Under the pieces are notes generated by a model that was not told the DNA's origin, did not search any database, and saw nothing but the letters and a program-made list of their open reading frames with translations. This document shows, in pieces, positions 8,989 to 41,181 of a stretch of DNA of 64,000 bases (positions within the stretch are counted from its first letter, which is position 1; the number at the start of each line of letters is the position of its first letter). The stretch comes from Arcuatula senhousia (Eukaryota; Mollusca; Bivalvia; Mytilida; Mytilidae), in NCBI GenBank assembly GCA_963971305.1, contig OZ020305.1, positions 43,473,717 through 43,537,716 on the forward strand, given 5' to 3'. The position numbers and the translations under genes are program-made.

Positions 8989-9135
8989 TTTCCCTTGTTC
9001 TTATGTTGTTTCATGACTTTTTTGTTTCCCTTGCTCTTATGTTTTTTTCATGGCGTCTTTGTTTTCCTTGCTCTTGTGTTTTTTTTTATAGCGTCTTTGT
9101 TTCCCTTGCCCTCATGTTTTTTCATGGCGTCTTTT
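8989..9135 (+). repeat. Short minisatellite, about 40 bp x 4
   Basis: Unit resembles TTTCCCTTGCTCTTATG followed by TTTTTTCATGGCGTCTT. Copies start near 8989, 9027, 9063 and 9101. The overlapping hydrophobic open frames are simple consequences of this repeat. Confidence 0.7.
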
Positions 9136-17709: not shown

Positions 17710-17770
17710 ATGTCTCCCCTTCCCAGAAGGGGGAGACATATTGTTTTTGTGTCAGTTCTTCTTCTTCTTA
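17710..17770 (+). mobile_element. zeta 5' terminus
   Basis: Hairpin ATGTCTCCCCTTCC / GAAGGGGGAGACAT, whose right arm has one extra G, followed by ATTGTTTTTGTGTCAGTTC and CTTCTTCTT. The left arm, not the right, matches the zeta 3' subterminal sequence exactly. Confidence 0.65.
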
Positions 17771-17772
17771 TT

Positions 17773-17826
17773 ATGTCCCCGAACACGAAGTGTCGGGGAC
17801 ATATTGTTTTTGCTCGGTTTCTTATT
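17773..17826 (+). mobile_element. alpha 5' terminus without its own adjacent body
   Basis: ATGTCCCCGA...TCGGGGACAT hairpin with ATTGTTTTTGCTCGG-TTTC. It is immediately followed by the epsilon element. It is the probable partner of one of the unpaired alpha 3' ends far to the right (candidate: the truncated end at about 39403). Confidence 0.6.
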
Positions 17827-18366
17827 AAGTCCCCCAAACAACGTTTGGGGACTTATTGTTTTTGCACCGTTTCTTATTATTTTTATTCTTCTTCTTCTTA
17901 TTCTTCCACTTAGTCGTGAACTTGTCCGGAGATCCCAGAGGAAACGACTCTACATATCAATATGAAACTTGGCAGGATAATAGATTGTAAAGAAAGGAAG
18001 CTTCGTTGACAATCAGACTTTTCAAAATGGCCGCCGTTTCCATGGAAACAGGAAAATGGACTAAATATTGGACATTGCAATATCTCGGTAACCTAGGTGC
18101 GCAGGGTTCTGAAATTTTGTAGGTTGATAGAGCAAAACATTCTCTTTAATAATATGAAAAAAAAATTTGAAGCGATATTTACGGTTTTCGAGATATAAAT
18201 AAAAATGTGATTTCTCAAGGGAGATAATCGGGTCGAAATTTTCAAAGTGCTCCGATTTACATGAAAATTGATATTTAGGTTTTTTTTGACATGCTGAAGA
18301 GAATAGTGGCAAATACGGGTCGTTTGGGGGACTTTGTGACTTGCTTGCAATCACAGTTAATACTTG
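17827..18366 (+). mobile_element. Complete Helentron-like element, family epsilon
   Basis: 5' arm AAGTCCCCCAAAC (hairpin right arm GTTTGGGGACTT lacks one base). 3' subterminal GTTTGGGGGACTT (about 18332-18344) is exactly complementary to the left arm. It is followed by hairpin TGTGACTTGC/GCAATCACA and CTTG before TTATT. The body is single copy and carries the ATATCTCGGTAACCTAGGTG module. 540 bp, non-coding. Confidence 0.8.
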
Positions 18367-18374
18367 TTATTATT

Positions 18375-19727
18375 ATGTCCCCGAACACGAAGTGTCGGGG
18401 ACATATTGTTTTTGCTCGGTTTCTTATTATTATTATTTTTTTTTTTTTATTATTATTATTCTTAGTATTCTTTAGTGTGAACTTGTCCGCTCGATTTAAA
18501 GAACATCTTTAAAGGTAGGAAGCTGAAACTTCATATGTCAAGAGTATGGAGTGTGAAATTGTGTAATCAGATTTTTTCGTCAAAATCAAACGACCCCTTA
18601 TAGGGTAAAAAGGGGCCTGAAAATGGCTCCTCAAAATCAAAGTTGAATTTTTACTGGCATTTCCAAACCGGCTAGATTAGGGAAAATTCCTTTCACTATG
18701 TAGTAGGTATATATAAGAGGTATCATACAAAAAAAAATTTTGAAAATCGGACTTACCGTTTTCAAAATTTTGCAAAAATTCGAAAAAAGGGGAGATAATT
18801 GAATACCACATTATTCGAAATTATATCAAATATTTAGTATTTCTAGGTAAAATTTTATTAATGAAGTAATGATGAAGACTTTAAGTTTCTATATGTAGGT
18901 TAAGGTGATATGCCAAGATGATTTCTTGGTCTCAAAAAATTTTTGTCGGTCAATTACAAAATGGCTGACTGTTTCCCGCCAAAATTGAAACTTGCTCCTA
19001 ATTTGATGAAAATTGGTTTGTAAGGTAATAGTGATATACCGAGTTCATTTTTGGAATCGAAATTATTTTATCGACCGCCATTTTCAAAATGGCCGCCACT
19101 TTAAGTAAAAATTCAACTTGCTCAGATTTTAACGAAAATTGATATCTAGGGGTTTTATAGCAGGGCGAATTTATGTGCGTTGTCGAAAATGTCGAAAATT
19201 CAAAATGGCCGCCACTTCCGGTAAAAATTCAACTTGCTCAGATTTTAACGAAAATTGATATTTAGGGGTTTTATAGCATGGCGAATTTGTGAGTGTTGTC
19301 GAAAATGTCGAAAAATTCAAAATGGCCGCCACTTTCGGTAAAAATTCAACTTGCTCCGATTTAAACGAAAATTGATATCGAGGGGCTTTAAAGGATGCCG
19401 AATAGAAGTGTGTTGTCGAAAATGTCGAAAAATTCAAAATGGCCGCCACTTCCGGTAAAAATTCAACTTGCTCAGATTTTAACGAAAATTGCTATCTAGG
19501 GGTTTTATAGCATGGCGAATTTATGAGGGTTGTCGAAAATGTCGAAAAATTCAAAATGGCCGCCACTTACGGTAAAATTTAACTTATTCCGATTTTAACA
19601 AAAATTGATATCTAAGCATTATAATGGATGGCAAACAGAAAAATGTTATCAACTAAGCCAGATATAAACAAAGAGGGGTACGTGAGGGGACATTTGTGAC
19701 TCGCTTTGCGATCACAATTATACCTAG
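18375..19727 (+). mobile_element. Complete Helentron-like element, family alpha
   Basis: 5' hairpin ATGTCCCCGA/TCGGGGACAT, then a TTATT-rich microsatellite and the body (TCTTTAGTGTGAACTTGTCC). A 117 bp minisatellite (19086-19640) follows, then GAGGGGTACGTGAGGGGACA, hairpin TGTGACTCGC/GCGATCACA and ATTATACCTAG before TTATT. 1353 bp. The element 19985-21338 is almost identical (1354 bp). Confidence 0.8.
19086..19640 (+). repeat. 117 bp minisatellite array in an alpha element
   Basis: AAAATGGCCGCC recurs at 19086, 19202, 19319 and 19436 (spacing 116-117). Unit: GCC-CACTTCCGGTAAAAATTC, then GATTTTAACGAAAATTGATA, then a GTCGAAAATGTCGAAAAATT spacer. The period is a multiple of three, so the minus strand stays open. 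Confidence 0.85.
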
Positions 19728-19732
19728 TTATT

Positions 19733-20036
19733 ATGTCCCCGAACACGAAGTGTCGGGGACATATTGTTTTTGCTCGGTTTCTTCTTATTATTATGTCCCC
19801 GAACACGAAGTGTCGGGGACATATTGTTTTTGCTCGGTTTCTTATTATTATTATTATTATTATTATTATGTCCCCGAACACGAAGTGTCGGGGACATATT
19901 GTTTTTGCTCGGTTTCTTATTATTATTATGTCCCCGAACACGAAGTGTCGGGGACATATTGTTTTTGCTCGGTTTCTTATTATTATGTCCCCGAACACGA
20001 AGTGTCGGGGACATATTGTTTTTGCTCGGTTTCTTA
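19733..20036 (+). mobile_element. Five consecutive alpha 5' termini
   Basis: The same 51-base alpha 5' end starts at 19733, 19793, 19868, 19928 and 19985, separated only by (TTA)n runs of different length. The last continues into the body ending at 21338. The others are best explained as 5' ends whose bodies were displaced rightward by successive insertions into the microsatellite directly behind each 5' hairpin. The Tyr- or Ile-rich open frames across it are artefacts. Confidence 0.75.
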
Positions 20037-21338
20037 TTATTATTTTTTTTTTTTATTATTATTATTCTTAGTATTCTTTAGTGTGAACTTGTCCGCTCGA
20101 TTTAAAGAACATCTTTAAAGGTAGGAAGCTGAAACTTCATATGTCAAGAGTATGGAGTGTGAAATTGTGTAATCAGATTTTTTCGTCAAAATCAAACTAC
20201 CCCTTATAGGGTAAAAAGGGGCCTGAAAATGGCTCCTCGAAATCAAAGTTGAATTTTTACTGGCATTTCCAAACCGGCTAGATTAGGGAAAATCCCTTTC
20301 ACTATGTAGTAGGTATATATAAGAGGTATCATACAAAAATTTTTTTTTGAAAATCGGACTTACCGTTTTCAAAATTTTGCAAAAATTCGAAAAAAGGGGA
20401 GATAATTTAATACCACATTATTCGAAATTATATCAAATATTTAGTATTTCTAGGTAAAATTTTAGTAATGAAGTAATGATGAAGACTTTAAGTTACTATA
20501 TGTAGGTTATAGTGATGCGCCAAGATGAGTTCTTGGTCTCAAAAAATTTTTGTCGGTCAATTACAAAATGGCTGACTGTTTCCCGCCAAAATTGAAACTT
20601 GCTCCGAATTTGATGAAAATTGGTTTGTAAGGTAATAGTGATTTGCCGAGTTCATTTTTGGAATCGAAATTTTTTTTTTATCGACCGCCATTTTCAAAAT
20701 GGCCGCCGCTTCCGGTAAAAATTCAACTTGCTCAGATTTTAACGAAAATTGATATCAAGGGGTTTTATAGCAGGGCGAATTTATGTGCGTTGTCGAAAAT
20801 GTCGAAAAATTCAAAATGGCCGCCACTTCCGGTAAAAATTCAACTTGCTCAGATTTTAACGAAAATTGATATTTAGGGGTTTAATAGCATGGCAAATTTA
20901 TGAGTGTTGTCGAAAATGTCGAAAAATTCAAGATGGCCGCCAATTCCGGTAAAAATTCAACTTGCTCCGATTTAAACCAAAATTGATATCGAGGGGTTTT
21001 AAAGGATGCTGAATAGAAGTTTGTTGTGGAAAATGTCGAAAAATTCAAAATGGCCGCCACTTCCGGTAAAAATTCAACTTGCTTAGATTTTAACGAAAAT
21101 TGCTATCTAGGGGTTTTATAGCATGGCAAATTTATGAGGGTTGTCGAAAATGTCGAAAAATTCAAAATGGCCGCCACTTACGGTAAAATTCAACTTGCTC
21201 CGATTTTAACGAAAATTGATATCTAAGCATTATAATGGATGGCGAATAGAAAAATGTTATCAACTAAGCCAGATATAAACAAAGAGGGGTACGTGAGGGG
21301 ACATTTGTGACTCGCTTTGCGATCACAATTATACCTAG
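19985..21338 (+). mobile_element. Complete Helentron-like element, family alpha
   Basis: Same order and nearly the same sequence as 18375-19727, including ACCCCTTATAGGG and CCAAACCGGCTAGATTAGG. It contains a five-unit minisatellite (about 20696-21180) and the 3' end hairpin with ATTATACCTAG at 21338 before TTATT. Confidence 0.8.
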
Positions 21339-22914
21339 TTATTATTATTATTATTTTTCACCAATTTAAAGAACATCTTTGAAGTTAGGAAGCTGAAACT
21401 TCATATATCAAGAGTATGGAGTGTGAAATTGTGTAATCAGGTTTTTTTGCCAAAATCAAACGACCCCTTATAGGGTAAATAGGGGCCTAAAAATGGCTCC
21501 TCGAAATCAAAGTTTTATTTTAAGCGGCATTCGTAAACCGGCGGGAATATTAAAAATCTGTATATATATAAAATAGGTACTCACGAGAGGTATCATTCAA
21601 AAAAAGAATTTTGAAAATCGGACTTACGGTTTTCAATATTTTGCAAAAAAACAAAAATAGAAATTTAAAAGGGAGATAATCCTAATTGGATTTTGGGAAA
21701 TTTTTTTAAATTTATTATTTTGAAATGAAAATTTGTATCTAAGGTAATTGGGGTATGCCGAGTTCATTTCTTATATGGAAAAAAATTTATCGGCCGCAAT
21801 TTTCAAAATGGCCGCCACTTCCGGTAAAAATTGAACTTGCTCCGATTTTAACGAAAATTGATATCTAGGGGTTTTAAAGGATGGCGAATTGAGGCGTGAA
21901 GTCGAAAATGTTGAAAAATTCAAAATGGCTGCCACTTCCGGTAAAAATTGAACTTGCTCCGATTTTAACGAAAATTGATATCTAGGGGTTTTAAAGGATG
22001 GCGAATTGAGGCGTGAAGTCGAAAATGTTGAAAAATTCAAAATGGCCGCCACTTCCGGTAAAAATTGAACTTGCTCCGATTTTAACGAAAATTGATATCT
22101 AGGGGTTTTAAAGGATGGCGAATTGAGGCGTGAAGTCGAAAATGTTGAAAAATTCAAAATGGCTGCCACTTCCGGTAAAAATTGAACTTGCTCCGATTGT
22201 AACGAAAATTGATATCTAGGGGTTTTAAAGGATGGCCAATTGAGGCGTGCAGTCGAAAATGTTGAAAAATTCAAAATGGCCGCCACTTCCGGTAAAAATT
22301 GAACTTGCTCCGATTTTAACGAAAATTGATATCTAGGGGTTTTAAAGGATGGCGAATTGAGGCTTGAAGTCGAAAATGTTGAAAAATTCAAAATGGCCGC
22401 CACTTCCGGAAAAATTGAACTTGCTCCGATTTTAACGAAAATTGATATCTAGGGGTTTTAAAGAATGGCGAATTGAGGCGTGCAGTCGAAAATGTTGAAA
22501 AATTCAAAATGGCCGCCACTTCCGGTAAAAATTGAACTTGCTCCGATTTTAACGAAAATTGATATCTAGGGGTTTTAAAGGATGGCGAATTGAGCCGTGA
22601 AGTCGAAAATGTCGAAAAATTCAAAATGGCCGCCACTTCCGGTCAAAAATAAACTTGCTCCGATTTTTACGAAAATTGATATCTAGAGGTTTTAAAGGAT
22701 GGTGAATTGAAGCGTGAAGTTGAAAATAACGAAAAATTCAAAATGGCCGCCACTTCCGGTAAAAATTGAAATTGGTCCGATTTTAACGAAAATTGATATC
22801 TCAGCTTTATAATGGATGGCGAACAAAAAATATTCTTGAATAAGCCGGATATAAACAAAGAGGGGTACGTGAGGGGACATTTGTGACTCGCTTTGCGATC
22901 ACAATTATACCTAG
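21339..22914 (+). mobile_element. alpha body with 3' terminus, 5' hairpin displaced
   Basis: After TTATT repeats it starts inside the alpha body (CAATTTAAAGAACATCTTTG). It holds the longest near-perfect 117 bp array (21805-22830) and ends with the alpha 3' hairpin and CTAG at 22914. Its 5' hairpin is presumably one of those stacked at 19733-19985. Confidence 0.7.
21805..22830 (+). repeat. 117 bp minisatellite array, about 8-9 units
   Basis: AAAATGG[CT]GCC occurs at 21805, 21922, 22039, 22156 and onward at 117 bp steps. Neighbouring units are nearly identical and alternate C/T at one site, suggesting higher-order duplication or gene conversion. The 210-residue minus-strand open frame is this array translated. 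Confidence 0.9.
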
Positions 22915-24357
22915 TTATTATTATTTTTCTCGGTATTCTGGACCGTGAACTTGTCCACCTCATTTTTTCGACATCTATTAAGGTAGGAAGCTGAATTTTC
23001 ATATATCGAGAGTATGGAATGGGAGATTGTGCTTTTTGTATTTTTTGTCGAAATCGAACGACCCCTTATAGGTAAAAAAAGGGCCTCAAAATGGCTCCTC
23101 GAAACCGTAGTTGAATTTTTACCTGACATTTCTGATCCGGCAGGGGTAGGAAAAATTCCTTTATAGATAAAGTGCGAATATTTAATACCTTTCATTTAAA
23201 AAAAAAATTTTAAAAATCGGACTTACCGTTTTCAAAATTTTGCAAAAAATCGAAATTTAATTTTTTTGTAAGATTGAGTTATCTTCCTTTGTACAATATA
23301 TTTTGTAACAGTATTGAAAAAAATTCTCAACTTTGTTATTTCTTAATGAAAATTGGTTTACAAGGTAATAGTTGTATGCCGAGTTCATTTTTGGAATCGA
23401 ATTTTTTTTTGGCAGCCATTTTCAAAATGGCGGCTAAAATGGCTGCCATTTTCCCGCCAAAATTTAAACTTGCTCCGATTTCGATGAAAATTGGTATATA
23501 TGGTAATAGTGGTATGGTGAGTTGATTTTTGACATCAAATTTTTTTTATCGTCAGCCATTTTCAAAATGGCCGCCGTTTCCCGCCAAAATTAAAGTTACT
23601 CCGATTTGAACGAAAATTGGTATATGAGGTAATAGTAGTATGGCAAGATGATTTTTGACATCGAAAATTTTGTAATGTCGGCCATTTTCAAAATGGCTGT
23701 CATTTTCCCGCCAAAATTTAAACTTGCTCCGATTTTGATGAAAATTAGTATATATGGTAATAGTGATATGGTGAGTTGATTTTTGACATCAAAATTTTTT
23801 TTATCGTCGGCCATTTTCAAAATGGCCGCCGTTTCCCGCAAAAATTAAAATTACTCCGATTTTGATGAAAATTGATAAATAAGGTAATAGTGGTATGGCG
23901 AATTGATTTTTGACATGAAATTTTTTTTTATCGTCAGCCATTTTCAAAATGGCCGCCATTTTCCCGCCAAAAATTAAAGTTACTCCGATTTTGATGAAAA
24001 TTGGTATATAAAGTGATAGTGGTATGGCGAGCTTATTTTTGACTTTGAAATTTAGTCATCGTCGGCCATTTTCAAAATGGCTGCCATCTCCCGCCAAAAT
24101 TTAAGTTACTACGATTTTGATGAAAATTGGTATCTAAGGTAATAATGGTATGGCGAGTTGATTTTTGACATTGAAATTTATTTATCGGCAGCCATTTTTA
24201 AAATGGCCGCCGTTTCCGGCCAAAATTTAACTTACTCCTATTTTGATGAAAATTGGGTATATTAAGTTATCTCATTAAATGCCAAGAGACATATTGACAA
24301 AGAGGGGTACGTGAGGGGACATGTATGTGACTCGCTTGCGATCACAATTAGAACTAG
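22915..24357 (+). mobile_element. alpha2 body with 3' terminus
   Basis: Begins TTTTTCTCGGTATTCTGGAC after TTATTATTA and contains a 115-125 bp repeat (CCCGCCAAAATTAAAGTTAC.., 23410-24250). It ends GTGAGGGGACATGTA, hairpin TGTGACTCGC/GCGATCACA, ATTAGAACTAG before TTATT. The alpha2 subtype differs from alpha in the spacer between hairpin and CTAG. Confidence 0.7.
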
Positions 24358-24365
24358 TTATTATT

Positions 24366-26042
24366 ATGTCCCCGAACACGAAGTGTCGGGGACATATTGT
24401 TTTTGCTCGGTTTCTTATTATTATTTTTTTTTTTTTATTATTATTATTCTTAGTATTCTTTAGTGTGAACTTGTCCGCTCGATTTAAAGAACATCTTTAA
24501 AGGTAGGAAGCTGAAACTTCATATATCAAGAGTATGGAGTGTGAAATTGTGTAATCAGGTTTTTTCGTCAAAATCAAACGACCCCTTATAGGGTAAATAA
24601 GGGCCTGAAAATGGCTCCTCAAAATCAAAGTTGAATTTTTACTGGCATTTCCAAACCGGCTGGATTAGGGAAAATTCCTTTCACTATGTAGTAGGTATAT
24701 ATAAGAGGTATCATACAAAAAAAGAATTTTTAAAATCGGACTTACCGTTTTCAAAATTTTGCAAAAAAACGAAAAAAAAGTTCTAAAGGGGAGATAATCC
24801 AAATTGAATTTTTGGAAAAATTTTAAACTTCATTATTTTTAAATGAAAATTTGTATTTAAGGTAATTGGGGTATGCCAAGTTTATTTTTGGTATCCAATT
24901 TTTTTTTTCGTCGGCCATTTTCAAAATGGCCGCCATTTCCGATTAAAATTAAACTTGGTCCGATTTTAATGAAAATTGGTATTAAAGGTAATTGGGGTAT
25001 GCCGAGTTCATTTCTGGTATCGAATTATTTTTATCGGCCGCCATTTTCAAAATGGCCGCCACTTCCGGTAAAAATTGAACTTGCTCTGATTTTAACGAAA
25101 ATTGATATCTAAGGGTTTTGAAGGATGGCGAATTGATGCGCGTTGTCGAAAATGTCGAAAAATTCAAAATGGCCGCCACTTCCGGTAAAAATTGAACTTG
25201 CTCCGATTTTAACAAAAATTGATATCTAAGGGTTTTGAAGGATGGCGAATTGATGCGCGTTGTCGAAAATGTCGAAAAATTCAAAATGGCCGCCACTTCC
25301 GGTAAAAATTGAACTTGCTCCGATTTTAACGAAAATTGATATCTAAGGGTTTTGAAGGATGGCGAATTGATGCGCGTTGTCAAAAATGTCGAAAAATTCA
25401 AAATGGCCGCCACTTCTGTAAAAAATTGAACTTGCTCCGATTTTAACAAAAATTGATATCTAAGGGTTTTGAAGGATGGCAAATTGATGCGCGTTGTCGA
25501 AAATGTCGAAAAATTCAAAATGGCCGCCACTTCCGGTAAAAATTGAACTTGCTCTGATTTTAACGAAAATTGATATTTAAAGGTTTTGAAGGATGGCGAA
25601 TTGATGCGCGTTGTCAAAAATGTCGAAAAATTCAAAATGGCCGCCACTTCCGGTCAAAAATAAACTTGCTCCAATTTTTACGAAAATTGATATCTAGAGG
25701 TTTTAAAGGATGGTGAATTGAGGCGTGAAGTCAAAAATGTCGAAAAATTCAAAATGGCCGCCACTTCCGGTAAAAATTGAACTTGGTCCGATTTTAACAA
25801 ATATTGATATCAAGAGGTTTTAAAGGATGGTGAATTGAGGCGTGAAGTCGAAAATGTCGAAAAATTCAAGATGGCCGCCACTTCCGGTAAAAATTGAAAT
25901 GGTCCGATTTTAACGAAAATTGATATCTAAGCTTTATAATGGATGGCGAACAAACAAATATTCTTGAATAAGCCGGATATTAACAAAGAGGGGTACGTGA
26001 GGGGACATTTGTGACTCGCTTTGCGATCACAATTATACCTAG
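24366..26042 (+). mobile_element. Complete Helentron-like element, family alpha
   Basis: 5' hairpin at 24366, body, 117 bp array from 25049 (units at 25049, 25166, 25283 and on), alpha 3' end with CTAG at 26042. 1677 bp; longer than 18375-19727 mainly because of extra minisatellite units. Confidence 0.8.
25049..25930 (+). repeat. 117 bp minisatellite array, about 7-8 units
   Basis: Units share GATGCGCGTTGTCGAAAAT and are closer to each other than to units of the array at 21805, consistent with local homogenisation. Translated on the minus strand it gives a 221-residue artefactual open frame. Confidence 0.9.
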
Positions 26043-26496
26043 TTATTATTATTCTTCTGATTCTTTATCGTAAAGTTGTCCTCCCTAATACAAGAAAATG
26101 GTCCAAGGAAATTGAATAACACTTGTGAGATAGGATAGTGGGTCACTCAAAGTTGTGTAATGCACTTTTAAAATTTTCAAGATGGCCGCCGTTTCAAAAT
26201 GGCGGCCATCGGAAAAAGTGGGCGGAAATTTTTTTTTCATCGGATCGTCTTGAAAATTGGTCATCTGGGTAAAGCGGGTATCCTGAGCTCAAATCTGCGA
26301 CCGGATTTGAAATCCGACTTACGGTTTCAAAATGGCGGCCATTTTACTACACCCGCCCCCCTAAAAACGTCAACTTTGACCGATTTCAACGAAATTTGAT
26401 TTTTAGACTTATTTTGATGCACTGATTTGAATTGAACTCTATCCAAGGCGATTTTGGGCGACTTGTGTGTTGGCATCCCAACACAATTATACCTAG
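26043..26496 (+). mobile_element. gamma body with 3' terminus
   Basis: Starts CTTCTGATTCTTTATCGTAA after TTATT and ends GGCGATTTTGGGCGACTT, hairpin TGTGTTGG-CATC-CCAACACA and ATTATACCTAG before TTATT. Its gamma 5' hairpin is not adjacent. Confidence 0.7.
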
Positions 26497-26958
26497 TTAT
26501 TATTATTATTATTCTTCTGATTCTTTATCGTAAAGTTGTCCTCCCTAATACAAGAAAACGGTTCAAGGAAATTGAATAGCACTTGTTGGATTGGATAGTG
26601 GGTCACTCAAAGTTGTGTAATGCACTTTTAAAATTTTCAAGATGGCCGCCGTTTCAAAATGGCGGCCGTCGGAAAAAGTGGGCGGAAATTTTTTTTTCAT
26701 CGGATTGTCTTGAAAATTAGTCATCTGGGTAAAGCGGGTATGCTGAATTCAAATCTGCGACCAGATTTGAAATCCGACTTCCGGTTTAAAAATGGCGGCC
26801 ATTTTACTACACCCGCCCCCCTTAAAAATGTGAACTTTGTCCGATTTCAATGAAATTTGATTTCTATACATATTTTATTGTACTGAATGGGAAGAAAAAG
26901 TATCCAAGGCGATTTTGGGCGACTTGTGTGTTGGCATCCCAACACAAATTATAGCTAG
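26497..26958 (+). mobile_element. gamma body with 3' terminus, second copy
   Basis: Closely related to 26043-26496, with TTTTGGGCGACTT, the same 3' hairpin and ATTATAGCTAG before TTATT. Two gamma bodies in a row without intervening gamma 5' ends mean the 5' ends were displaced or lost. Confidence 0.7.
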
Positions 26959-26966
26959 TTATTATT

Positions 26967-28071
26967 ATGTCTCCCAAACGAAAGTTTGGAGACATATTGT
27001 TTTTACTCCGTTTCTTATTATATCTCCCAAACACTATGTTTGGGAGATATATTGTTTTTACTCTGTTTCTTATTATTATTATTATTATTATTCTTTTTTT
27101 TTCTTCCGGACATGAACGTGTCCGGACCGGTTCTCAAAAATTACTAAATGGATCTTCACGAAACTTTGTATGTTGGTAGAGGGGGTCTCAAAGGTGGGAA
27201 TGCAAAAATCAAAATTTTCAAAATGGCTGCCGTTTCCATGGAAATAATATAAGGTCATAATATAGGACATTGTGATATCTCGGTAACCTAGGTGCGCAGG
27301 GTTCTGAAATTTTGCAGGTTAATAGAGCAAAAGGAGCTCTTTAATAATACGAAAAAAAAATTCGAAGCGATATTTACGGTTTTCGAGTTATTCACAAAAA
27401 TGTGATTTTACGGTCCCAAAATGGGAAAATTGTCAAAATGCTACGATTTCGACAAAAGTTTGTATCTAGGGGTTTCAAATGATGGCGAGTTAGGATGCGA
27501 TGTCAAAATTTATGCAAGAGTGACAATATGGGTACGTTTGGGAGATATTTTTGTGTTGGGCATCCCCAACACAGTCAGCACTAGTTATTATTATTCTTTT
27601 TCTTCTTTCTCCCCGCCATGAACTTGTCCGGTAGTTTTCTCTCAAACGCATAGGGGGATTTGCACGAAACATTGTAGGAAGGTAGATCGGTTACTGAAGT
27701 TGTTGACGGACTTTTCAAAAATTTCAAAATGGCCGCCGTTTCCGTGTAATTGGCGAAAGTTCATAATATAGGACATTGCAATATCTCGGTAACCTAGGTG
27801 CGTAGGAGGCTGAAATTTTGTAGGTGAATAGAGCAAAAGGAGCTCTTCAATAATACGAAAAAAAATTTGAAGCGATATTTACGGTTTTCGAGTTATTTGC
27901 GAAAATGTGATTTTTCGGGCCCAAAAATGCGAAAATCGTCAAAATGCTTCGATTTCGACAAAATTTTGTATCTTGAGGTATTAAAAGATGGCGAATCATA
28001 ATACGAGGTCAAAAATGGGTTCGTTTGGGAGACATTTTTGTGTTGGGCATCCCCAACACAGTCAGCACTTG
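26967..28071 (+). mobile_element. beta element (GAGACAT variant), carrying a nested beta
   Basis: 5' arm ATGTCTCCCAAAC (right arm GTTTGGAGACAT lacks one G). After the 5' end, a second beta element (27020-27584) is inserted. The outer body resumes at 27585 and ends with GTTTGGGAGACAT, exactly matching the left arm, hairpin TGTTGGG/CCCAACA and CTTG before TTATT (28071). Confidence 0.8.
27020..27584 (+). mobile_element. Complete beta element (GAGATAT variant), nested
   Basis: 5' arm ATATCTCCCAAAC with perfect right arm GTTTGGGAGATAT. 3' subterminal GTTTGGGAGATAT carries the same C-to-T variant, then the beta hairpin and CACTAG before TTATT. 565 bp. The body holds the ATATCTCGGTAACCTAGGTG module. 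Confidence 0.85.
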
Positions 28072-28076
28072 TTATT

Positions 28077-31215: not shown

Positions 31216-31223
31216 TTATTATT

Positions 31224-32177
31224 AAGTCACCGACCACGAAGTGTCGGAGACTTATTGTTTTTGCACCGTTTCTTATTATTATTATTATTATTTTTTTTTT
31301 TTCTCTGACGCAGCTTTGTCCGCAAGATTACGGAAAAGTGTCTGAAACGATTCTCATGAAACTTGGAATATATATAGGGTCGCATATGTAGGTGGGCCTC
31401 ATGGTTTTAAAATTTTCAAAATGGCCGCCATTTTCAAAATGGCCGCCCTCAAATTAGGGTACCGAAAAATTATCTCGGAAACTACTGGATGGATTTCGAT
31501 GAAATTTGGTATGTAGGTAGAGGGTAGTTAGGGAAGTTGAATGGTGGATACGAAAAATTCAAGATGGCCGCCATTTTCAAAATGGCCGCCGTCAAAAATT
31601 GACCAAAATTTTGTCCGCTAAATTTATCTACCTAAACCTCGATGGATTTGCATGAAATTTTGTATATTAATAGACCATTATATGTAGATGGTTTTTTTAC
31701 CAAGAAAAAATTTTGCGCGTCGGCCATTTTCAAAATGGCCGCCATCGAAAATTGTAAAATGGGATATTTCTAAAACTACTTGACGGATTGCAACCAAATT
31801 TGGTATTGAGGTAGATGAGAGTAAGGGAACTTGAATGGCTAATTCGAAAAAACCAAGATGGCCGCCATTTTCAAAATGGCCGCCATTGAAAATTGTAAAA
31901 TTGGATATTTCTAACACTACTTGACGGATTGCAACCAAATTTGGTATTTAGGTAGATGGGAGTAAGGGAAGTTGAATGGCCAATTCGAAAAATCAAGATG
32001 GCCGACATTTTCAAAATGGCCGCCATCAAACATTGAAAAAGGGGGGATCTTGGAAACTATTTGACAGATTTCAACACAATTTTATATGGTGATGCAGTTC
32101 AATATGTCGCTTCGAAATACATGCAGTTCAAACGGGAGGTGACTTCTGTGTTGGCATCCCAACACAATCACATCTAG
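31224..32177 (+). mobile_element. Complete Helentron-like element, family delta
   Basis: 5' arm AAGTCACCGA (right arm TCGGAGACTT, one mismatch). The body has a 135-140 bp repeat built around GGCCGCCATTTTCAAAATGG. 3' subterminal GGTGACTT matches the left arm, not the right; hairpin TGTTGG/CCAACA and CATCTAG before TTATT. Confidence 0.75.
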
Positions 32178-32182
32178 TTATT

Positions 32183-32245
32183 AAGTCGCCCAAAACATAG
32201 TTTTGGGGACTTATTGTTTTTGCACCGTTTCTTATTATTATTATT
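32183..32245 (+). mobile_element. gamma 5' terminus without adjacent body
   Basis: AAGTCGCCCAAAAC hairpin plus ATTGTTTTTGCACCG-TTTC, immediately followed by TTATT repeats and an alpha element. No gamma 3' end lies downstream before 41181, so this terminus is orphaned. Confidence 0.65.
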
Positions 32246-33688
32246 ATGTCCCCGAACACGAAGTGTTGGGGACATATTGTTTTTGCTCGGTTTCTTATTA
32301 TTATTTTTTTTTATTTTTTTTTTTTTATTATTATTATTCTTAGTATTCTTTAGTGTGAACTTGTCCGCTCGATTTAAAGAACATCTTTAAAGGTAGGAAG
32401 CTGAAACTTCATATATCAAGAGTATGGAGTGTGAAATTGTGTAATCAGGTTTTTTCGTCAAAATCAAACCACCCCTAATAGGGTAAATAGGGGCCTGAAA
32501 ATGGCTCCTCAAAATCAAAGTTGAATTTTTACTGGCATTTCCAAACCGGCTGGATTAGGGAAAATTCCTTTCACTATGTAGTAGGTATATATAAGAGGTA
32601 TCATACAAAAAAAGAATTTTTAAAATCGGACTTACCGTTTTCAAAATTTTGCAAAAAAACGAAAAAAAGTTTTAAAGGGGAGATAATCCAAATTGAATTT
32701 TTGGAAAAATTTTAAACTTTATTATTTTTAAATGAAAATTTGTATTTAAGGTAATTTAGGTATGCCGAGTTTATTTTTGGTATCCAATTTTTTTTTTCGT
32801 CGGCCATTTTCAAAATGGCCGCCATTTCCGATTAAAATTAAACTTGGTCCGATTTTAATGAAAATTGGTAGTAAAGGTAATTCGGGTATGCCGAGTTCAT
32901 TTCTGGTAACGAATTATTTTTATCGGCCGCCATTTTCAAAATGGCCGCCACTTCCGGTAAAAATTGAAATTGCTCCTATTTTAACGAAAATTGATATCTA
33001 AGGGTTTTGAAGGATGGCGAATTGATGCGTGTTGTCGAAAATGTCGAAAAATTCAAAATGGCCGCCACTTCCGGTAAAAATTGAACTTGCTCCGATTTTA
33101 ACGAAAATTGATATCTAAGGGTTTTGAAGGATGGGGAATGGATGCTTGTTGTCAAAAATGTCGATAAATTCAAAATGGCCGCCACTTCCGGTAAAAATTG
33201 AACTTGCTCCGATTTTAACGAAAATTGATATCTAAGGGTTTTGAAGGATGGTGAATTGATGTGCGTTGTCGAAAATGTCGAAAAATTCAAAATGGCCGCC
33301 ATTTCCGGTAAAAATTCAACTTGCTCAGATTTTAACCAAAATTGATATTTAGGGGTTTTGAATGATAACGAATTGAGGCGCGTTGTCGAAAAATTCAAAA
33401 TGGCTGCCACTTCGGGTAAAGATTTAACTTGTTCCGATTTTAACGAAAATTGATATCTAGGGGTTTTGAAAGATATTGAATTGAGAAGTGTTGTCGAAAA
33501 TGTCGAAAAATTCAAAATGGCTGCCACTTTCGGAAAAATTCAACTTGTTCAGATTTAAACGAAAATTGATATTCTAGCATTATAATGGATGGTGAACAGA
33601 AAAATGTGTTCAAAGAAGCCAGATATTAACAAAGAGGGGTACGTGAGGGGACATCTGTGACTCGCTTTGCGATCACAATTATACCTAG
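32246..33688 (+). mobile_element. Complete alpha element
   Basis: Alpha 5' hairpin with one substitution in the right arm (TTGGGGACAT), body, 117 bp array (about 32945-33560) with more divergent units and one shortened unit, alpha 3' end CTAG at 33688. Confidence 0.75.
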
Positions 33689-35169
33689 TTATTATTATTA
33701 TTATTTTTCTCGGTATTCTGGACCGTGAACTTGTCCACTTCATTTTTTCGACATCTTTTAAGGTAGGAAGCTGAATCTTCATATATCAAGAGTATGGAAT
33801 GGGAGATTGTGCTTTTTGTATATTTCGTCGAAATCGAACGACCCCTTATAGGTCAAAAAAGGGCCTCAAAATGGCTCCTCGAAACCGAAGTTGAATGTTT
33901 ACCTGGCATTTCTGATCCGGCAGAGGTAGGACAAATTCCTTTATGGGGTAAGTGTGGACTTTCAATACCTTTCATTTAAAAAAAAAATTTTGAAAATCGG
34001 ACTTACGGTTTTCAAAATTTTGCAAAAAATCGAAATTTAATTATTTTGTCATATTGAGTTATCTTTCTTTGTACCTTGTATTTTGTAATAGTAATGTATA
34101 AATTCTCAATTTTGTTATTTCTTAATGAAAATTGGTTTACAAGGTAATAGTGGTATGCCGAGTTCATTTTTGGTATCGAAATTGTTTTTTGGCAGCCATT
34201 TTAAAAATGGCGGCTAAAATTTCCCGCCAAAATTTAAACTTGCTCCGATTTTGATGAAAATTGGTATATAAGGTAATAGTGGTATGGGGAGATGATTTTT
34301 GACATCAAAATTTTTCTATCGTCAGCCATTTTCAAAATGGCCGCCATTTCCCGCCAAAATTAAAGTTACTCCGATTTTGACGAAAATTGGTATATAAGGT
34401 AATAGTGGTATGGCGAGATGCTTTTTGACATCGATTTTTTTTTATAGTCGGCCATTTTCAAAATGGCCACCGTTTCCCGCCAAAATTAAAGTTACACCAA
34501 TTTTGATGAAAATCGGTATTTGAGGTAATAGTGGTATGCTGAGTTGATTTTCGGAATGAATTTTTTTTTATCGTCGGCCATTTTCTAAATGGCCGCCGTT
34601 TCCCGCCAAAATTAAAGTTACTCTGATTTTCATGAAAACTCGTATATAAGGTAACAGTGGTATGGCGAGTTATTTTTTTACATTGAAATTTATTTATGGT
34701 CGGCCATTTTCAAAATGGCCACTGTTTCCCGCCAAAATTAAACTTACTCCGATTTTAATGAAAATTAATATACAGGGTAATTGTGGTATGGGGAGTTCAT
34801 TTTTAGCATCAAATTTTGTTTATGGTCCGATGCAACAGCTTTTGGATGCGACTGTGTGATTCTTCTCGACTATATGAGATTAAGGGAGAATAATATCTCA
34901 TATGGATGTCAACCAAAAGCTTCTCCGTAACGTTTTTATCATTTCATTGAAGAGTGGCTCCATTGTAGAGGACGAGAGCGGTAGTTATGCTCGCTAGTCA
35001 CTACAATAGTTTACAAGTACGCTACCAATGCTTGTAAAAAGGGTGCTTCAATGGAATGATAAGGGCGTCATTGCTTAAACAGGGTTCCCACAAAAGCCAG
35101 AAATATTGTCAAAGAGGGGTACGTGAGGGGACATGTATGTGACTCGCTTGCGATCACAATTAGAACTAG
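33689..35169 (+). mobile_element. alpha2 body with a foreign insert and 3' terminus
   Basis: Begins TTTTTCTCGGTATTCTGGAC. The alpha2 repeat array runs 34190-34820, and a non-repetitive segment (34826-35085) interrupts it before the alpha2 3' end (ATTAGAACTAG, 35169). Confidence 0.65.
34826..35085. mobile_element. Unrelated insert made of two hairpins
   Basis: The first half folds GCTTTTGG...ATATGAGATTA with TAATATCTCATAT...CCAAAAGC. The second half has near-inverted ends ATCATTTCATTGAAG (about 34939) and CTTCAATGGAATGAT (about 35060). Neither occurs elsewhere in the window. It looks like one or two tiny foldback elements. Confidence 0.5.
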
Positions 35170-35171
35170 TT

Positions 35172-35710
35172 ATGTCTCCCAAACGAAAGTTTGGAGACAT
35201 ATTGTTTTTACTCTGTTTCTTATTATTATTATTCTTTTTCTTCTTTCCTCCCGCCATGAACTTGTCCGGTAGTTTTCTCTCAAACGCATAGGGGGATTCA
35301 CACGAAACATTGTAGGAAGGTAGATCGGTTACTGAAGTTGTTGACGGACTTTTCAAAAATTACAAAATGGCCGCCGTTTCCTTGTAATTGGCGAAAGTTC
35401 ATAATATAGGACATTGCAATATCTCGGTTACCTAGGTGCGTAGGAGGCTGAAATTTTGTAGGTGAATAGAGCAAAGGGAGCTCATCAATAATACGAAAAA
35501 AAATTTTGAAGCGATATTTACGGTTTTCGAGTTATTTGCGAAAATGTGATTTTTCGGGCCCAAAAATGCGAAAATCGTCAAAATGCTTCGATTTCGACAA
35601 AATTTTGTATGTAGGGGTTTTAAAAGATGGCGAATCATAATACGAGGTCAAAAATGGGTTCGTTTGGGAGACATTTTTGTGTTGGGCATCCCCAACACAG
35701 TCAGCACTAG
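35172..35710 (+). mobile_element. Complete beta element (GAGACAT variant)
   Basis: 5' arm ATGTCTCCCAAAC (right arm short by one G). 3' subterminal GTTTGGGAGACAT, hairpin TGTTGGG/CCCAACA, CACTAG before TTATT. Sequence closely follows the outer beta body at 27585-28071. Confidence 0.85.
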
Positions 35711-37000
35711 TTATTATTATTTTTCTCGGTATTCTGGATCGTGAACTTGTCCACCTCATTTTTTCGACATCTTTTAAGGTAGGAAGCTGAAACTTCATAT
35801 ATCAAGAGTATGGAATGGGAGATTGTGCTTTTTGTATTTTTCGTCGAAATCGAACGACCCCTTATAGGTCAAAAAAGGGCCTCAAAATGGCTCCTCGAAA
35901 CCGAAGTTGAATTTTACCTGGCATTTCTGATCCGGCAGTGGTAACACAAATAACTTTATGGGGTAAGTGTAGACTTTCGATACCTTTCATTTAAAAAAAA
36001 AAATTTGAAAATCGGACTTACGGTTCTCAAAATTTTGCAAAAAATCGAAATTTAATTTTTTTGTCAAATTGAGTTATCTTTCTTGGAACAATATATTTTG
36101 TAATAGTAATGTAAAAATTCTTAACTTTGTTATTTCTTAATGAAAATTGGTTTACAAGGTTATAGTGGTATGCCGAGTTCATTTTTGGTATCGAAAAAAA
36201 TTTTTGGCGGCCATTTTTGAAATGGCGGCTAAAATGGCCGCCATTTTCCCGCCAAAAATTAAACTTGCTCCAATTTTGATGAAAATTGGTATATAAGGTA
36301 ATAGTGGCATGGCGAGTTGATTTTTAACATCAAAATTTTTTTATCGTTTGCCATTTTCAAAATGGCCGCCGTTTCCCGCCAAAAATTAAACTTACTCCGA
36401 TTTTGATGAAAATTGGTATATAAGGTAATAGTGGTATGGCGAGTTGATTTTCGACATCAAAATTTTTTTTATCGTCGGCCATTTTCAAAATGGCCGCCGT
36501 TTCCCGCCAAAATTAAAGTTACTCTGATTTTGATGAAAATTGGTATATAAAGTAATAGTGGTATGGCGAGTTGATTTTTGACATTGAAATTTTTATTTCT
36601 TCGGCCACATTCAAAATGGCCGCCGTTTCCCGCCAAAATCAAAGTTACTCTGATTTTGATGAAAATTGGTATATAAGGTAAAAGTGGTATGGCGAACTTA
36701 TTTTTGACATCAAATTTTTTAAGCGTCTCTTAGCATTTGAGATAACTTATTATATCCAATTTTCATCAAAATAGGAGTAAGTTTAATTTTGGCCATTTCC
36801 CGCCAAAATTAAACTTATATCCAATTTTCATCAAAATAGGAGTAAGTTTAATTTTGGCCATTTCCCGCCAAAATTAAACTTACTCCTATTTTGATGAAAA
36901 TTGGATATAATAAGTTATCTCAAATGCTAAGAGACATTGACAAAGAGGGGTACGTGAGGGGACATTTTTGTGACTCGCTTGCGATCACAATTAGAACTAG
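35711..37000 (+). mobile_element. alpha2 body with 3' terminus and internal palindrome
   Basis: Same start and end as 33689-35169. Its repeat array ends in the 211 bp palindrome at 36725-36935. CTAG at 37000 before TTATT. Confidence 0.7.
36725..36935. repeat. 211 bp near-perfect palindrome
   Basis: The left arm begins GTCTCTTAGCATTTGAGATA and the right arm ends in its exact complement TATCTCAAATGCTAAGAGAC. Both arms include AATTTTCATCAAAATAGGAG or its complement. The centre is itself a smaller palindrome bounded by two copies of CCATTTCCCG. It is an inverted duplication of the normal alpha2 3' segment. Confidence 0.85.
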
Positions 37001-37933
37001 TTATTATTATTTTTCTCGGTATTCTGGACCGTGAACTTGTCCACCTCATTTTTTCGACATCTTTTAAGGTAGGAAGCTGAAACTTCATATATCAAGAGTA
37101 TGGAATGGGAGATTGTGCTTTTTGTATTTTTCGCCAAAATTGAACGACCCCTTATAGGTCAAAAAAGGGCCTCAAAATGGCTCCTCGAAACCGAAGTTGA
37201 TTTTTTACCTGGCATTTCTGATCCGGCAGGGGTAGGAATAATTCCTTAATAGGTTAAGTGTGGCTATTTAATACCTTTCATTTAAAAAAAAAAATTTGAA
37301 AATCGGACTTACCGTTTTCAAAATTTTGCAAAAAATCGAAAATTATTTTTTTTGTAAGATTGAGTTATCTTCCTTTGTACTTTATATTTTGTAATAGTAA
37401 TGTAAAAATTCTCGACTTTGTTATTTCTTAAAGAAAATTGGTTTTCAAGGTAATAGTGGTATGCCGAGTTCATTTTTGGAATCGAAATTTTTTTTTGGCG
37501 GCCATTTTCAATATGGCGGCTAAAATGGCCGCCATTTTCCCGCCAATTTTTAAAGTTACTCCGATTTTGATGAAAATTGGTATTTAAGGTAATAGTGGTA
37601 TGCCGATTTGATTTTTGACATTAAAAATTTTTCATCGTCGGCCATTTCCAAAATGGCCACCGTTTCCCGCCAAAAAATTTAAAGTTACTCAGATTTTGAT
37701 GAAAATTGGTATATCAGGTAATAGTGGTATGGCGATTCGATTTTTGACATTAAAAATTTTTAATCTTCGGCCATTTCCAAAATGGCCGTCGTTTCCGGCC
37801 AAAATTAAACTTTCTCCTATTTTGATGAATATTGGGTATATTAAGTGATCTCAAATGCCAAGAGACATAATGACAAAGAGGGGTACGTGAGGGGACATAT
37901 ATGTGACTCGCTTGCGATCACAATTAGAACTAG
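37001..37933 (+). mobile_element. alpha2 body with 3' terminus
   Basis: Same start as the other alpha2 bodies, three diverged repeat units (37500-37850), GTGAGGGGACATAT, hairpin and GAACTAG at 37933, followed directly by TTATATCTCCC of a beta element. Confidence 0.7.
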
Positions 37934-37935
37934 TT

Positions 37936-38498
37936 ATATCTCCCAAACACTATGTTTGGGAGATATATTGTTTTTACTCTGTTTCTTCTTATTATTATTA
38001 TTCTTTTTTTTTCTTCTTCCGACCATGAACGTGTCTGCACCACATCTCATAAAACTACTCAATGGATCTTCATGAAACTTTGTATGTTGTTAGAGGGGGT
38101 CTCAAAGGTGTGCATGCGATTTTTGAAATTTTCAAAATGGCCACCGTTTCCATGGAAACAGGGAAAGGTCATAATATAGGACATCGTGATATCTCGGTTA
38201 CCTAGGTTCGCAGGGTCCTGAAATTTTGCAGGTTGATAGAGCAAAAGGAGCTCTTTAATAATACGAAAAAAATTTTGAAGCGATATTTACAGTTTTCGAG
38301 TTATTCACGAAAATGTGATTTTTCGGGCCCAAAAATGGGAAAATTGTAAAAATGCTACGATTTCAACAAAATTTGGTATCTAGGGGTTTCAAACGATGGC
38401 GAATTAGGATGCGATGTCAAAATTAATGCAATAGTGACAGTTTGCGTACGTTTGGGAGATATTTTTGTGTTGGGCATCCCCAACACAGTCAACACTAG
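37936..38498 (+). mobile_element. Complete beta element (GAGATAT variant)
   Basis: 5' arm ATATCTCCCAAAC, perfect hairpin. 3' subterminal GTTTGGGAGATAT, beta hairpin, AACACTAG before TTATT. 563 bp, close to the nested beta at 27020-27584. Confidence 0.85.
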
Positions 38499-39403
38499 TT
38501 ATTATTATTATTATTATTTTTCTCGGTATTCTGGATCGTGAACTTGTCCACCTCATTTTTTCGACATCTTTTAAGGTAGGAAGCTGAAAATTCATAAATC
38601 AAGAGTATGGAATGGGAGATTGTGCTTTTTGTATTTTTTGCCGAAATCGAACGACCCCTTATAGGTCAAAAAAGGGCCTCAAAATGGCTCCTCGAAACCG
38701 AAGTTGAATTTTTCCTGGCATTTCTGATCCGGCAGGGGTAGGAAAAATTCCCTTAAATGTTAAGTGCGGATATACAATACCTTTCATTTAAAAAAAAAAT
38801 TTTGAAAATCGGACTTACCGTTTTCAAAATTTTGCAAAAAATCGAAAATTATTTTTTTTGTAAGATTGAGTTATCTTTCTTTGTACCATATATTTTGTGA
38901 TATTTATGAAAAAAATTCTCAACTTTGTTATTTCTTAATGAAAATTAGTTTACAAGGTAATAGTGGTATGCCGAGTTCAATTTTGGAATCGAAATTTTTT
39001 TTTGGACCGCCATTTTCAAAATGGCCGCCATTTCCCGCCAAAATTAAAATTACTCCGATTTTAATGAAAATTGGTATATAAGGTAATAGTGGTATGGCAA
39101 GTTGATTTTTGACATCAAAATTTTTTTATCGTCGGCCATTTTCAAAATGGCCGCCGTTTTCCGCCAAAATTAATTTTACTCAAATTTTAACGAAAATTGG
39201 TATATAAGGTAATATATGTATGGTGAGTTGATTTTTGACATCGAAATATTTTTATTGTCGGCCATTATAAAAATGGCCGCCGTTTCCCGCCAAAATTAAA
39301 CTTACTCCTATTTTGATGGAAATTGGATAAATTAAGTTATCTCAAATGCCAAGAGACATTGACAAAGAGGGGTACGTGAGGGGACATTTTTGTGACTCGC
39401 TTG
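38499..39403 (+). mobile_element. alpha2 body with truncated 3' end
   Basis: Standard alpha2 start and body. The 3' end reads GTGAGGGGACATTTTTGTGA then CTCGCTTG and breaks off in the middle of the hairpin, directly joining the (CTT)n run of zeta. About 23 bp including CTAG are missing. Confidence 0.65.
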
Positions 39404-41181
39404 CTTCTTCTTCTTCTTCTTCTCATACAAAGCGTGTCCGGGCCATAACTTTTTTATCTTTTGAGATAGGGCTTTGATATTTGGCATGTGTATGTATCAC
39501 CAAGAGACGATGTGTCGCGTACCAGAATGACCTTCATATGACCTTGACCTTTGACCTTAAGGTCAAATTAAAGATAATTTTACATCCAAAGTGTTCCGGG
39601 CCATAACTTTTTTGTTCTTTGACAAAGGGCTTTGATATTTGACATGTGGATGTATCACCATGAGACGATGTGTCGCATACCAGAATGACCTTCATATGAC
39701 TTTGACCTTTGACTTCAAGGTCAAATTAAAGATAATTTTACATCCAAAGTGTTCAGGGCCGTAACTTTTTTTTCTTTGACAAAGGGCTTTGATATCTGAC
39801 ATGTGGATGTATCACCATGAGACGATGTGTCGCATACCAGAATAACCTTCATATGACCTTGTCTTTTTACCTCCAGGTCAAATTAATGCTTACCGTATTT
39901 TACATCCAAAGTGTTCCAGGTCTTAACTTTTTTGTTCTTTGACAAAGGACTTTGATTTTTGGCATGTGGATGTATCACCATGAGGCAATGTGTCGCTTAC
40001 AAGAATGAACTTCATATGACCTTGACCTTTGACCTCAAGATCGAATTAATGTTAATTTTACATCCAAAGTGTTTCAGGCCATAACTTTTTTGTTCTTTGA
40101 CATAGGGTTTTGATCTTTGGCATGTGGATGTATCACCATAAGACAATGTGCCGCATACCAGAATGACCTTTGTATAACCTTGACCTTTGACCTAAAGGTT
40201 AAATTAAAGCTAATTTTACATGGAAAGTGTGTCTGTGCCATAACTTTTTTGTTCTTTGACATAGGGCTATAATATTTGACATGTGCATGTATCACTATGA
40301 GACGATATATCGCGTACCAGAATGACCTTCATATGACCTTGACCTTTTACCACAAGGTCAAATTAATGCTAATTGTACATCCAAAATGTTCCAGGCCATA
40401 ACTTTTTTGTTTTTGACAAAGGGCTTTGATATTTGGCATGTGGATGTATCACCATCATACAATGTGTCACGTACCAGAATGAACTTCATATGACCTTTGA
40501 CCTTAAGATCAAATTAATGTTCATTTTACATCCAAAGTGTTCCAGCCATATTTTTTTTGTTCTTTGACATAGGGCTTTTATATTTGGCATGTGGATGTAT
40601 CACCATAGGACAATGTGGCGTGAACCAGAATGACCTTCATATGACCTTGACCTAAAGGTTAAATTAATGCTTATTTTACATGGAAAGTGTGTCTGTGCCA
40701 AAACTTTTTTGTTCTTTGACATAGGTCTATAATATTTGAAATGTACATGTATCACCATGAGATGATGGGTCGCCTACCAGAATGACCTTCATATGACCTT
40801 TACCTTTAACCTCAAGATAAAATTAATGCTATTTTTACATGCAAAACATGTCTGGGCCATATATATTTTAATCCTTTAAACAAAAAGCTTTGATTTTTGA
40901 CATGATAATGTGTCATCATGAGAACAATGTGTCACTAACGTTAATGACCTTGACCTGTGACTTCAATGTCAAATAAATGCTAATTTGACATACAAAGCTT
41001 TCCAGGCCATAACTTTTTTATCCTTTGACATTGGGCTTTAGAATGTAGATGTATAATTATTAAACAATTTGTTGTACAATGTATGTCATTGTGACTTTGA
41101 CCTTTTGACCTCAAAGTTGAACTTGTGTTATTTAAGGAAGGGGAGACATCAGTTTTAGTGCGCTAAAACAGTTTTTCCTAG
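39404..41181 (+). mobile_element. zeta body: TGACCT satellite and 3' terminus
   Basis: After (CTT)n it consists of about 11 units of roughly 157 bp (landmark CATGTGGATGTATCACCA at 39485, 39643, 39800, 39963, 40121, 40280, 40437, 40588 and on). Units contain CATAACTTTTTTGTTCTTTG and a TGACCT-rich block, degenerating toward the right. The zeta 3' terminus ends at 41181. Confidence 0.8.
39545..39565. promoter_or_regulatory. DR1 nuclear-receptor-like half-site pair in the satellite
   Basis: TGACCTTTGACCT is the exact complement of AGGTCAAAGGTCA, a perfect DR1 of the type bound by RXR, HNF4 and COUP-TF family receptors. An inverted AGGTCA follows one base later. Perfect DR1 copies recur near 40025, 40182 and 40493; other units carry one-base variants. 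Binding is not shown; this is motif content only. Confidence 0.4.

Follow-up and report, generated by a model that had tools for sequence, protein, structure and literature searches.

How do the ends of so many short mobile elements come to lie together, all in one orientation, in a single stretch of a mussel genome? The question is raised by a 64,000-nt stretch of Arcuatula senhousia (the window, C3:43473717-43537716; assembly 1.036 Gb), in which positions 17710-41181, 23.5 kb in length, are crowded with the hairpin-bearing ends of Helentron-like elements. It is very probable that the locus was built by rolling-circle elements of the HINE kind, which have a landing pad next to the 5' end and insert into one another at this pad in a fixed orientation, giving nested stacks.

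In the cluster we count 19 5' hairpin units, each some 50 bp long, and 21 3' ends made of a subterminal inverted repeat (subTIR) copy, a hairpin, CTAG or CTTG and a following TT, all on the plus strand. Twenty of these 3' ends are intact, and one alpha end, at about 39404, has a truncated hairpin. A 22nd 3' end, eta, has the other terminal form CAATA before TT and is also present in two further loci (L016 and L018), while the search for end families returned zero end events on the minus strand of the window. A preliminary description had reported about 14 5' hairpins and about 19 3' ends; the ends it saw are real, but both counts were too low. It was right about the layout of the 5' unit, where the hairpin gives way to ATTGTTTTT and then to a short string that ends in TTTCTT, except that zeta has CAGTTC and then TTCTTC instead. 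Its families stand as well, although its beta splits into two subfamilies, ATGTC and ATATC, giving seven end types (alpha, beta1, beta2, gamma, delta, epsilon and zeta).

Further, an inverted copy of the left arm of the 5' hairpin does precede the 3' hairpin, as described earlier, in 7/7 end types, with exact runs of 8-14 bases (zeta 14, epsilon 13, alpha 8, beta1 14, beta2 13, gamma 13, delta 8). In the five types whose hairpin arms part early (zeta, epsilon, beta1, gamma and delta) the 3' copy tracks the left arm, with runs of 14, 13, 14, 13 and 8 bases versus 10, 8, 8, 5 and 5 for the right arm. DNA folding of one 5' hairpin per end type gave z values from -3.0 to -8.7. The CTAG/CTTG + TT ending of the preliminary description is found in the window but is not universal, as eta and other families in like clusters end AATA, CTTA or TTAA before TT. 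The ten alpha 5' units of the window are identical or one change apart; over their first 350 nt the alpha-B bodies are 91-96% alike, versus 75-80% to alpha-A. Many bodies carry central tandem repeats with units of 117-158 bp, and between 18430 and 39330 these repeats have a motif, TTCAAAATGGCCGCC, common to families with different ends; in the same interval a GTGAACTTGTCC-like motif lies just past the pad in many bodies.

To which class do such elements belong? In excerpts of two published accounts (PMC4067079, PMC7492417) a HINE has a 5' subTIR with a complementary inverted repeat, a microsatellite, central tandem repeats, a 3' subTIR followed by a palindrome, and a TT target, and the HINEs of mites, flies and oysters carry the same parts. 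All seven end types of the window have the 5' hairpin with an inverted copy before a 3' palindrome, the palindrome lies near the terminus, a microsatellite follows the 5' block ahead of the central repeats, and insertion is at TT with no target modification, although a 2-bp TT duplication would look alike. The matching architecture supports the assignment to non-autonomous Helentron/Helitron2-type (HINE) elements made in the preliminary description. In the sampled part of another contig, 18 Mb of C1, the hairpins likewise mark where copies end, and removing guests restores paralogous empty sites at TT, in line with the check that had been proposed there. The hallmark that departs is the repeat length of two families: HINE families have been defined by a subTIR identical over at least 11 bp (PMC4067079, in part), and subTIRs here are 13-14 bp in zeta, epsilon, beta1, beta2 and gamma, and 8 bp in alpha and delta. 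As far as the excerpts go, HINE/DINE-1-like elements, including the oyster Cg_HINE, share with ours the subTIR and inverted repeat, the microsatellite, the repeats, the palindrome, a TT or T-rich target and the absence of coding capacity, whereas the short alpha and delta subTIRs and the systematic insertion into one another's microsatellite set the present elements apart. The word 'nested' has 0 occurrences in PMC7492417. Several oyster elements also have GTCY/GTCC-type microsatellites, in contrast to the ATT tracts seen here. In the window, outside the nest, there are two copies of another HINE-like family, whose microsatellite is GTCC and whose ends are GTCCCCCGCCGC / GCGGCGGGGGAC; they lie at about 3890-5140 (minus strand) and 8418-8990 (plus strand), in opposite orientations, and resemble the oyster ones.

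Canonical Helitrons start with TC at the 5' end and finish with CTRR at the 3' end, a few bases after a 3' hairpin. They insert between A and T (PMC5148889, in part). The window elements resemble them in the 3' hairpin placed a few bases before a CTRR-type end, CTAG; the 5' hairpins start ATG, AAG or ATA rather than TC, and the site is TT, so this class was rejected.

In what order do the ends lie? We paired same-family 5' and 3' ends as nested brackets and compared the outcome with shuffles of order or of labels. The clustering of ends noted in the preliminary description is real, but a single nested stack had been overlooked: the best parse of the window joins 18/19 5' units with 18/21 3' ends in seven levels, the outermost pair being zeta 17710..41181. 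Eighteen pairs were reached by 0/4,000 order shuffles (maximum 15) and 0/4,000 label shuffles (maximum 16). With alpha left out, 8/9 5' units pair, and 7 (order) and 18 (label) of 20,000 shuffles do equally well. The nesting beta1(beta2 beta2)beta1 follows the arm subtype, and when beta2 is excised from the beta1 element at 26967..28071, the rejoined host is identical to the intact beta1 at 35172..35710 in 523/539 columns, with the ATT register unbroken and the junction exact. An objection to the displaced alpha pairs is that near-identical 5' units are joined to diverged A and B bodies. It is answered by two contiguous copies on C1, in which the alpha 5' unit directly precedes an alpha-B body, an adjacency never seen in the window, and the displaced alpha pairs are therefore supported. 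The features of the nest are as follows (basis in brackets).

17710..41181, plus: zeta element, outermost; 5' unit at 17710, CTAG end at 41181, host site ..GATTCTTATT on the left and TTAGGTTATC on the right
17759-17772 and 39405-39422, plus: zeta (TTC)n tract, split by the nest
17773..37933, plus: alpha (B body) pair, level 2 (nested parse)
17827..18366, plus: epsilon, uninterrupted (98.5% like the reconstituted L009 1313 copy)
18375..19727, plus: alpha (A body), uninterrupted (nested parse)
19733..37000, plus: alpha (B body) pair, level 3 (nested parse)
19793..35169, plus: alpha (B body) pair, level 4, with unmatched ends also inside (nested parse)
19868..24357, plus: alpha (B body) pair, level 5 (nested parse)
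19928..22914, plus: alpha (C body) pair, level 6 (nested parse)
19985..21338, plus: alpha (A body), uninterrupted, level 7 (nested parse)
24366..26042, plus: alpha (A body), uninterrupted (nested parse)
26043..26496, plus: gamma body and 3' end without 5' unit, unmatched (parse, body comparison)
26497..26958, plus: gamma body and 3' end without 5' unit, unmatched (parse, body comparison)
26967..28071, plus: beta1 with beta2 in its ATT tract (rejoined alignment to the beta1 at 35172)
27020..27584, plus: beta2, uninterrupted, within beta1 (nested parse)
28077..30073, plus: gamma with alpha in its ATT tract (parse, reconstituted host alignment)
28137..29608, plus: alpha (A body) within gamma (nested parse)
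30074..31214, plus: eta body and 3' end, no 5' unit (palindrome ATGATCTCTGAGATCAT, end CAATA before TT)
31224..32177, plus: delta, uninterrupted (nested parse)
32183..32233, plus: gamma 5' unit without body, unmatched (nested parse)
32246..33688, plus: alpha (A body), uninterrupted (nested parse)
35172..35710, plus: beta1, uninterrupted, the empty-site reference (alignment)
37936..38498, plus: beta2, uninterrupted (nested parse)
38499..39404, plus: alpha (B body) without 5' unit, 3' hairpin cut off, unmatched (end search, body comparison)

Is such nesting found elsewhere in the genome? A genome-wide pattern for the end of the 5' unit gave 3,471 + 3,245 = 6,716 matches, against 0 + 0 for the reversed pattern used as control, so the units are not due to chance; pattern scans of the viral_contigs and genome_contigs sets gave no matches. 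Our genome sample comprises the stretches around the first 100 listed matches, all of which fall within the initial 18 Mb of contig C1, and is thus non-random. It should be noted that the end types eta, kappa and alpha' entered the parser only after inspection of unparsed stretches (a further family, lambda, was seen and left out), and hence the result of the first, unmodified parser is the untouched test. Run on 20 stretches, which included the C1:4.18-4.23 Mb cluster only in part, it found 112 5' units, 95 3' ends and 77 nested pairs, against a mean of 59.4 and a maximum of 67 in 1,000 within-locus label shuffles. With the added end types, the 18 loci other than the window gave 92 pairs (shuffle mean 65.4, maximum 74 in 1,000), and 53 when only displaced ends were used (mean 40.4, maximum 47 in 1,000). 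The 50-kb stretch C1:4.18-4.23 Mb has 46 5' and 43 3' ends, which form 40 pairs in ten levels (shuffle maximum 31 in 200).

Together the 19 loci, window included, hold 165 5' ends, 159 3' ends, 144 pairs and 119 host-guest relations; two of them, L024 and L034 (earlier L023), are 0.5-2.5 kb apart and may be one cluster. All recognised ends are matched in 8/18 of the other loci, two of the eight being single elements. Heterotypic stacks are exemplified by (t(g(b(g g)b)g)t) in L011 and (e(e(e(e(k k)e)e)e)e) in L009. For a check on subtypes the parse used the first eight arm bases only, and agreement was noticed on inspection: in AAGTCCCC pairs the 5' loop/tail subtype matches the 3' subtype in 9/9 displaced and 6/6 contiguous pairs. 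The nearest relative lies in the same locus more often than in shuffles for gamma (9/39, p 0.04) and alpha (15/31, p 0.02), with no clear excess for beta (5/20, p 0.06), beta2 (5/10, p 0.58) and epsilon1 (3/10, p 0.22), and local hopping therefore explains only part of the pattern. Five alpha-A bodies lie in the window (18375-33688) and none among the 13 alpha pairs of C1, whose 3' ends are all of the alpha-B type; an alpha-A-like 3' end lies ahead of L025 (minus strand) 2370. A local burst of alpha-A in the window is possible.

Where, then, do the newcomers land? An (ATT)n pad lies right behind the ~50-bp 5' unit, replaced by (TTC)n in zeta. Among clean insertions, meaning those into hosts without unmatched recognised ends inside, 88/91 lie 48-112 bp from the host 5' end, which is the (ATT)n tract; as most thus insert in the ATT repeat of an earlier element, the order of ends largely records the order of insertion. 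Among 131 5' units examined in a set of 19 loci, TT precedes 131/131 and ATT 120/131, and each of these loci has a single polarity. In the window nest the pads hold 326 TT sites versus 2,953 in bodies, about a tenth, whereas TTATT is found 144 times in pads and 45 times in bodies, and TTATTATT 100 times and 3 times. Reconstituted hosts align with intact relatives through the junction, some differing in ATT-tract length, and in L016 three gamma copies in nested position, 515 bp long, do not differ from one another. Empty sites are restored on removal of one TT, which is indistinguishable from a 2-bp TT target duplication. The first elements of nests sit mostly at simple sites, e.g. AATT or TTATT before TT, in DNA without recognised ends.

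A process that accounts for what is observed, namely the ends, their nesting, the location of the pads, the TT rule, the single polarity of each locus and the restored empty sites, would run as follows. The (ATT)n tract behind each 5' unit would work as a landing pad, in which newcomers of several families insert at TT in the orientation of the host, leaving TT on each side, and each guest would supply a new pad of its own. With successive rounds the 5' units of the hosts would pile up one after another, their bodies and 3' ends following downstream in the opposite sequence, and such a locus consequently reads as nested brackets. The cutting and copying, from 5' unit to 3' palindrome, may be performed in trans by the rolling-circle Rep/helicase of an autonomous Helentron, and a strand-specific attack on T-rich single strand could fix the orientation. 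Pad-to-pad deletion or composite transposition may play a minor role in the unmatched ends, which may also belong to end types outside the library. Further, we speculate that the complex homes, recognising the 5' unit of a relative, or the single strand opened by its hairpin, and inserting beside it in a self-renewing safe harbour; this we put forward tentatively, as an idea well short of probable. A circular intermediate with homologous recombination from pad to pad was considered and rejected, as the 3' end of the guest would then be expected to join its own 5' unit and no 5' stacking would arise.

Several results weigh against mutual invasion at the pads, or fail to lend it the support that might have been hoped for. 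Three of the 91 clean insertions are off the pad, at 427, 2095 and 2098. Unmatched ends amount to 21/165 5' and 15/159 3' ends over the 19 loci, and to four in the parse of the window, or five counting eta. In the window the test on displaced ends only is weak (271/20,000 order and 1,933/20,000 label shuffles equal it), and alpha by itself is uninformative, 3,394/20,000 order shuffles being as good. In gamma the subtype at the 5' end does not go with that at the 3' end, and this family is therefore uninformative for the subtype check. By nearest-relative distance in five families, hosts are not measurably older than unoccupied elements (p 0.08-0.93). Neither an autonomous element nor transposition was observed in the window and the sampled C1 loci; the long open reading frames (ORFs) of L009-L028 were viewed by eye only, with no Rep/helicase recognised and no profile search made on them.

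Stacked 5' units could in principle arise in other ways. A nested element might be nicked at the outermost of its 5' ends, copied as far as the first 3' end and mobilised as a single unit with several caps; such composites have been proposed for the Fusarium FoHelis with repeated 5' termini (PMC5148889, in part), and would explain the lone gamma unit at 32183, which possibly caps a composite that includes the alpha element at 32246. Such composites predict a clear excess of 5' ends, yet 19 are seen versus 21 3' ends in the window and 165 versus 159 over the 19 loci; every recognised end is matched in 8/18 other loci, and the displaced bodies are present in reverse order, making this origin of the stacks very unlikely, though single cases may exist. 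The 5' units might also have multiplied without nested insertion, through slippage or unequal exchange in the ATT tracts or because truncated elements were amplified by a rolling circle. Near-identical 5' units flanked by ATT direct repeats suggest this, as does tandem-repeat software, which calls an array at 19728-20044, and plant Helitron arrays with many 5' ends and one 3' end have been attributed to rolling-circle amplification (Xiong et al. 2016, as cited in excerpts of PMC12628747). As neither slippage nor amplification can yield heterotypic stacks with bodies in reverse order, or restored empty sites, we consider this extremely unlikely; it is contradicted as the main cause, and the loss or gain of an individual unit may still be due to it. 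Neither duplication of 5' units in tandem nor composite transposition, taken alone, is accepted as the main cause, given how evenly 5' and 3' ends are balanced and that the families follow in reverse order. Mis-joined or collapsed repeats seem barely credible as the source of the nests: repeats this similar are hard to assemble, and the nests are known here from the assembly rather than from reads, but nests of several families turn up in many loci, and their junctions are exact, which would not be expected from mis-joins.

Less easily set aside is the view that the nesting is real and the pads nothing special, any ATT microsatellite being preferred. Since TTATTATT is nearly confined to pads in the window nest, elements that simply favoured ATT repeats would land at just these positions, and we regard this as a serious possibility, though not a probable one. 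Outside the nests there are 38 tracts of TT followed by at least two ATT in 150,852 bp (both strands), only four of which have at least three ATT, and 2/18 left flanks of first events end in ATTATT (L018+L019 and L034), counted over a set of 19 loci minus L025 and without flanks beginning at another recognised 5' unit. The L034 flank may itself be a repeat, as it recurs at L024 8235. These counts of free tracts and first flanks favour attraction by the 5' unit, in a comparison that is small and rough. At L024 (minus strand) 8235 and L034 (minus strand) 550 there are theta-type 5' units, some 2.8 kb from each other, with an identical left flank of 30 bases; some of the apparent host DNA at this place is therefore repeated.

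How does mutual invasion at pads compare with what has been described? According to excerpts of PMC5148889, the FoHeli elements of Fusarium, of the Helitron2 type, have hairpin termini in two subgroups, asymmetric terminal inverted repeats and repeated short 5' termini, for which self-insertion was proposed as the cause, and three tandem copies in Metarhizium acridum were read as possible insertion into 5' ends. The likeness lies in the terminal hairpins, the asymmetric inverted repeats and the repeated 5' termini; the difference, as far as those excerpts go, in the host bodies and 3' ends in reverse order, the many families, the depth of 10 and the internal ATT site. Plant tandem arrays of truncated Helitrons have many 5' ends and one 3' end (Xiong et al. 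2016, as cited in excerpts of PMC12628747); they share the row of 5' ends with our loci, where 3' ends are about equal in number. The same review, in part, describes C. gigas loci in which Helitron parts are truncated, tandemised and inserted in other elements, and for a region of Calliphora, where 85 Helitron copies are listed, three have been reported as nested (PMC3630058, in part). Ordered, pad-targeted stacks were not found described in these partial sources; self-insertion of Helitron2-type elements has already been proposed, in Fusarium, and the systematic pad-targeted stacking is a new form of a known phenomenon.

Two further families were seen in the sampled loci. Kappa has a different 5' tail, its hairpin being AAGGTCTTTCC..GGAAAGACCTT, then A[CT]TGTATTTCTTATG, with 3' ends TTTAA before TT, and uses the same ATT pads; it occurs in L009 at about 1365-2943, in L015 (minus strand) at 1217 and 2775, and in L021 (minus strand) at 4298. 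Lambda (ATGTCACTCCAC..) is present in L024 (minus strand) 2270-2690 as seven stacked 5' units, followed by three of its 3' ends, and occurs also in L009 at 3438 and in L013 at 2451 and 3464. In the window an exon-like ORF at 61677-62072 (minus strand) encodes an immunoglobulin domain (Pfam PF00047, E 6.2e-10). The plus-strand ORFs 9614-10003 and 53923-54336 have a long near-identical stretch ..SGAPCWEKCHVP..LKNPAAGLGKSRTRRIPMQEAKFPVP.. in common and no Pfam match at E 0.1, and are probably another dispersed repeat.

Nested insertion of mobile elements is usually opportunistic. Here the target is built into the element, and every insertion therefore adds a new target, so that growth of the cluster feeds itself; this would explain large clusters of rolling-circle elements in one orientation. 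The relative order of many insertions at one locus can be obtained without a clock, whereas annotation tools that call ends singly would misread nested loci. The shared 5' units, family-specific arms and many natural sites make target choice by Helentron-type transposases testable. If homing is true, the elements would steer one another, building open-ended stacks whose bracket order is a readable history of insertion.

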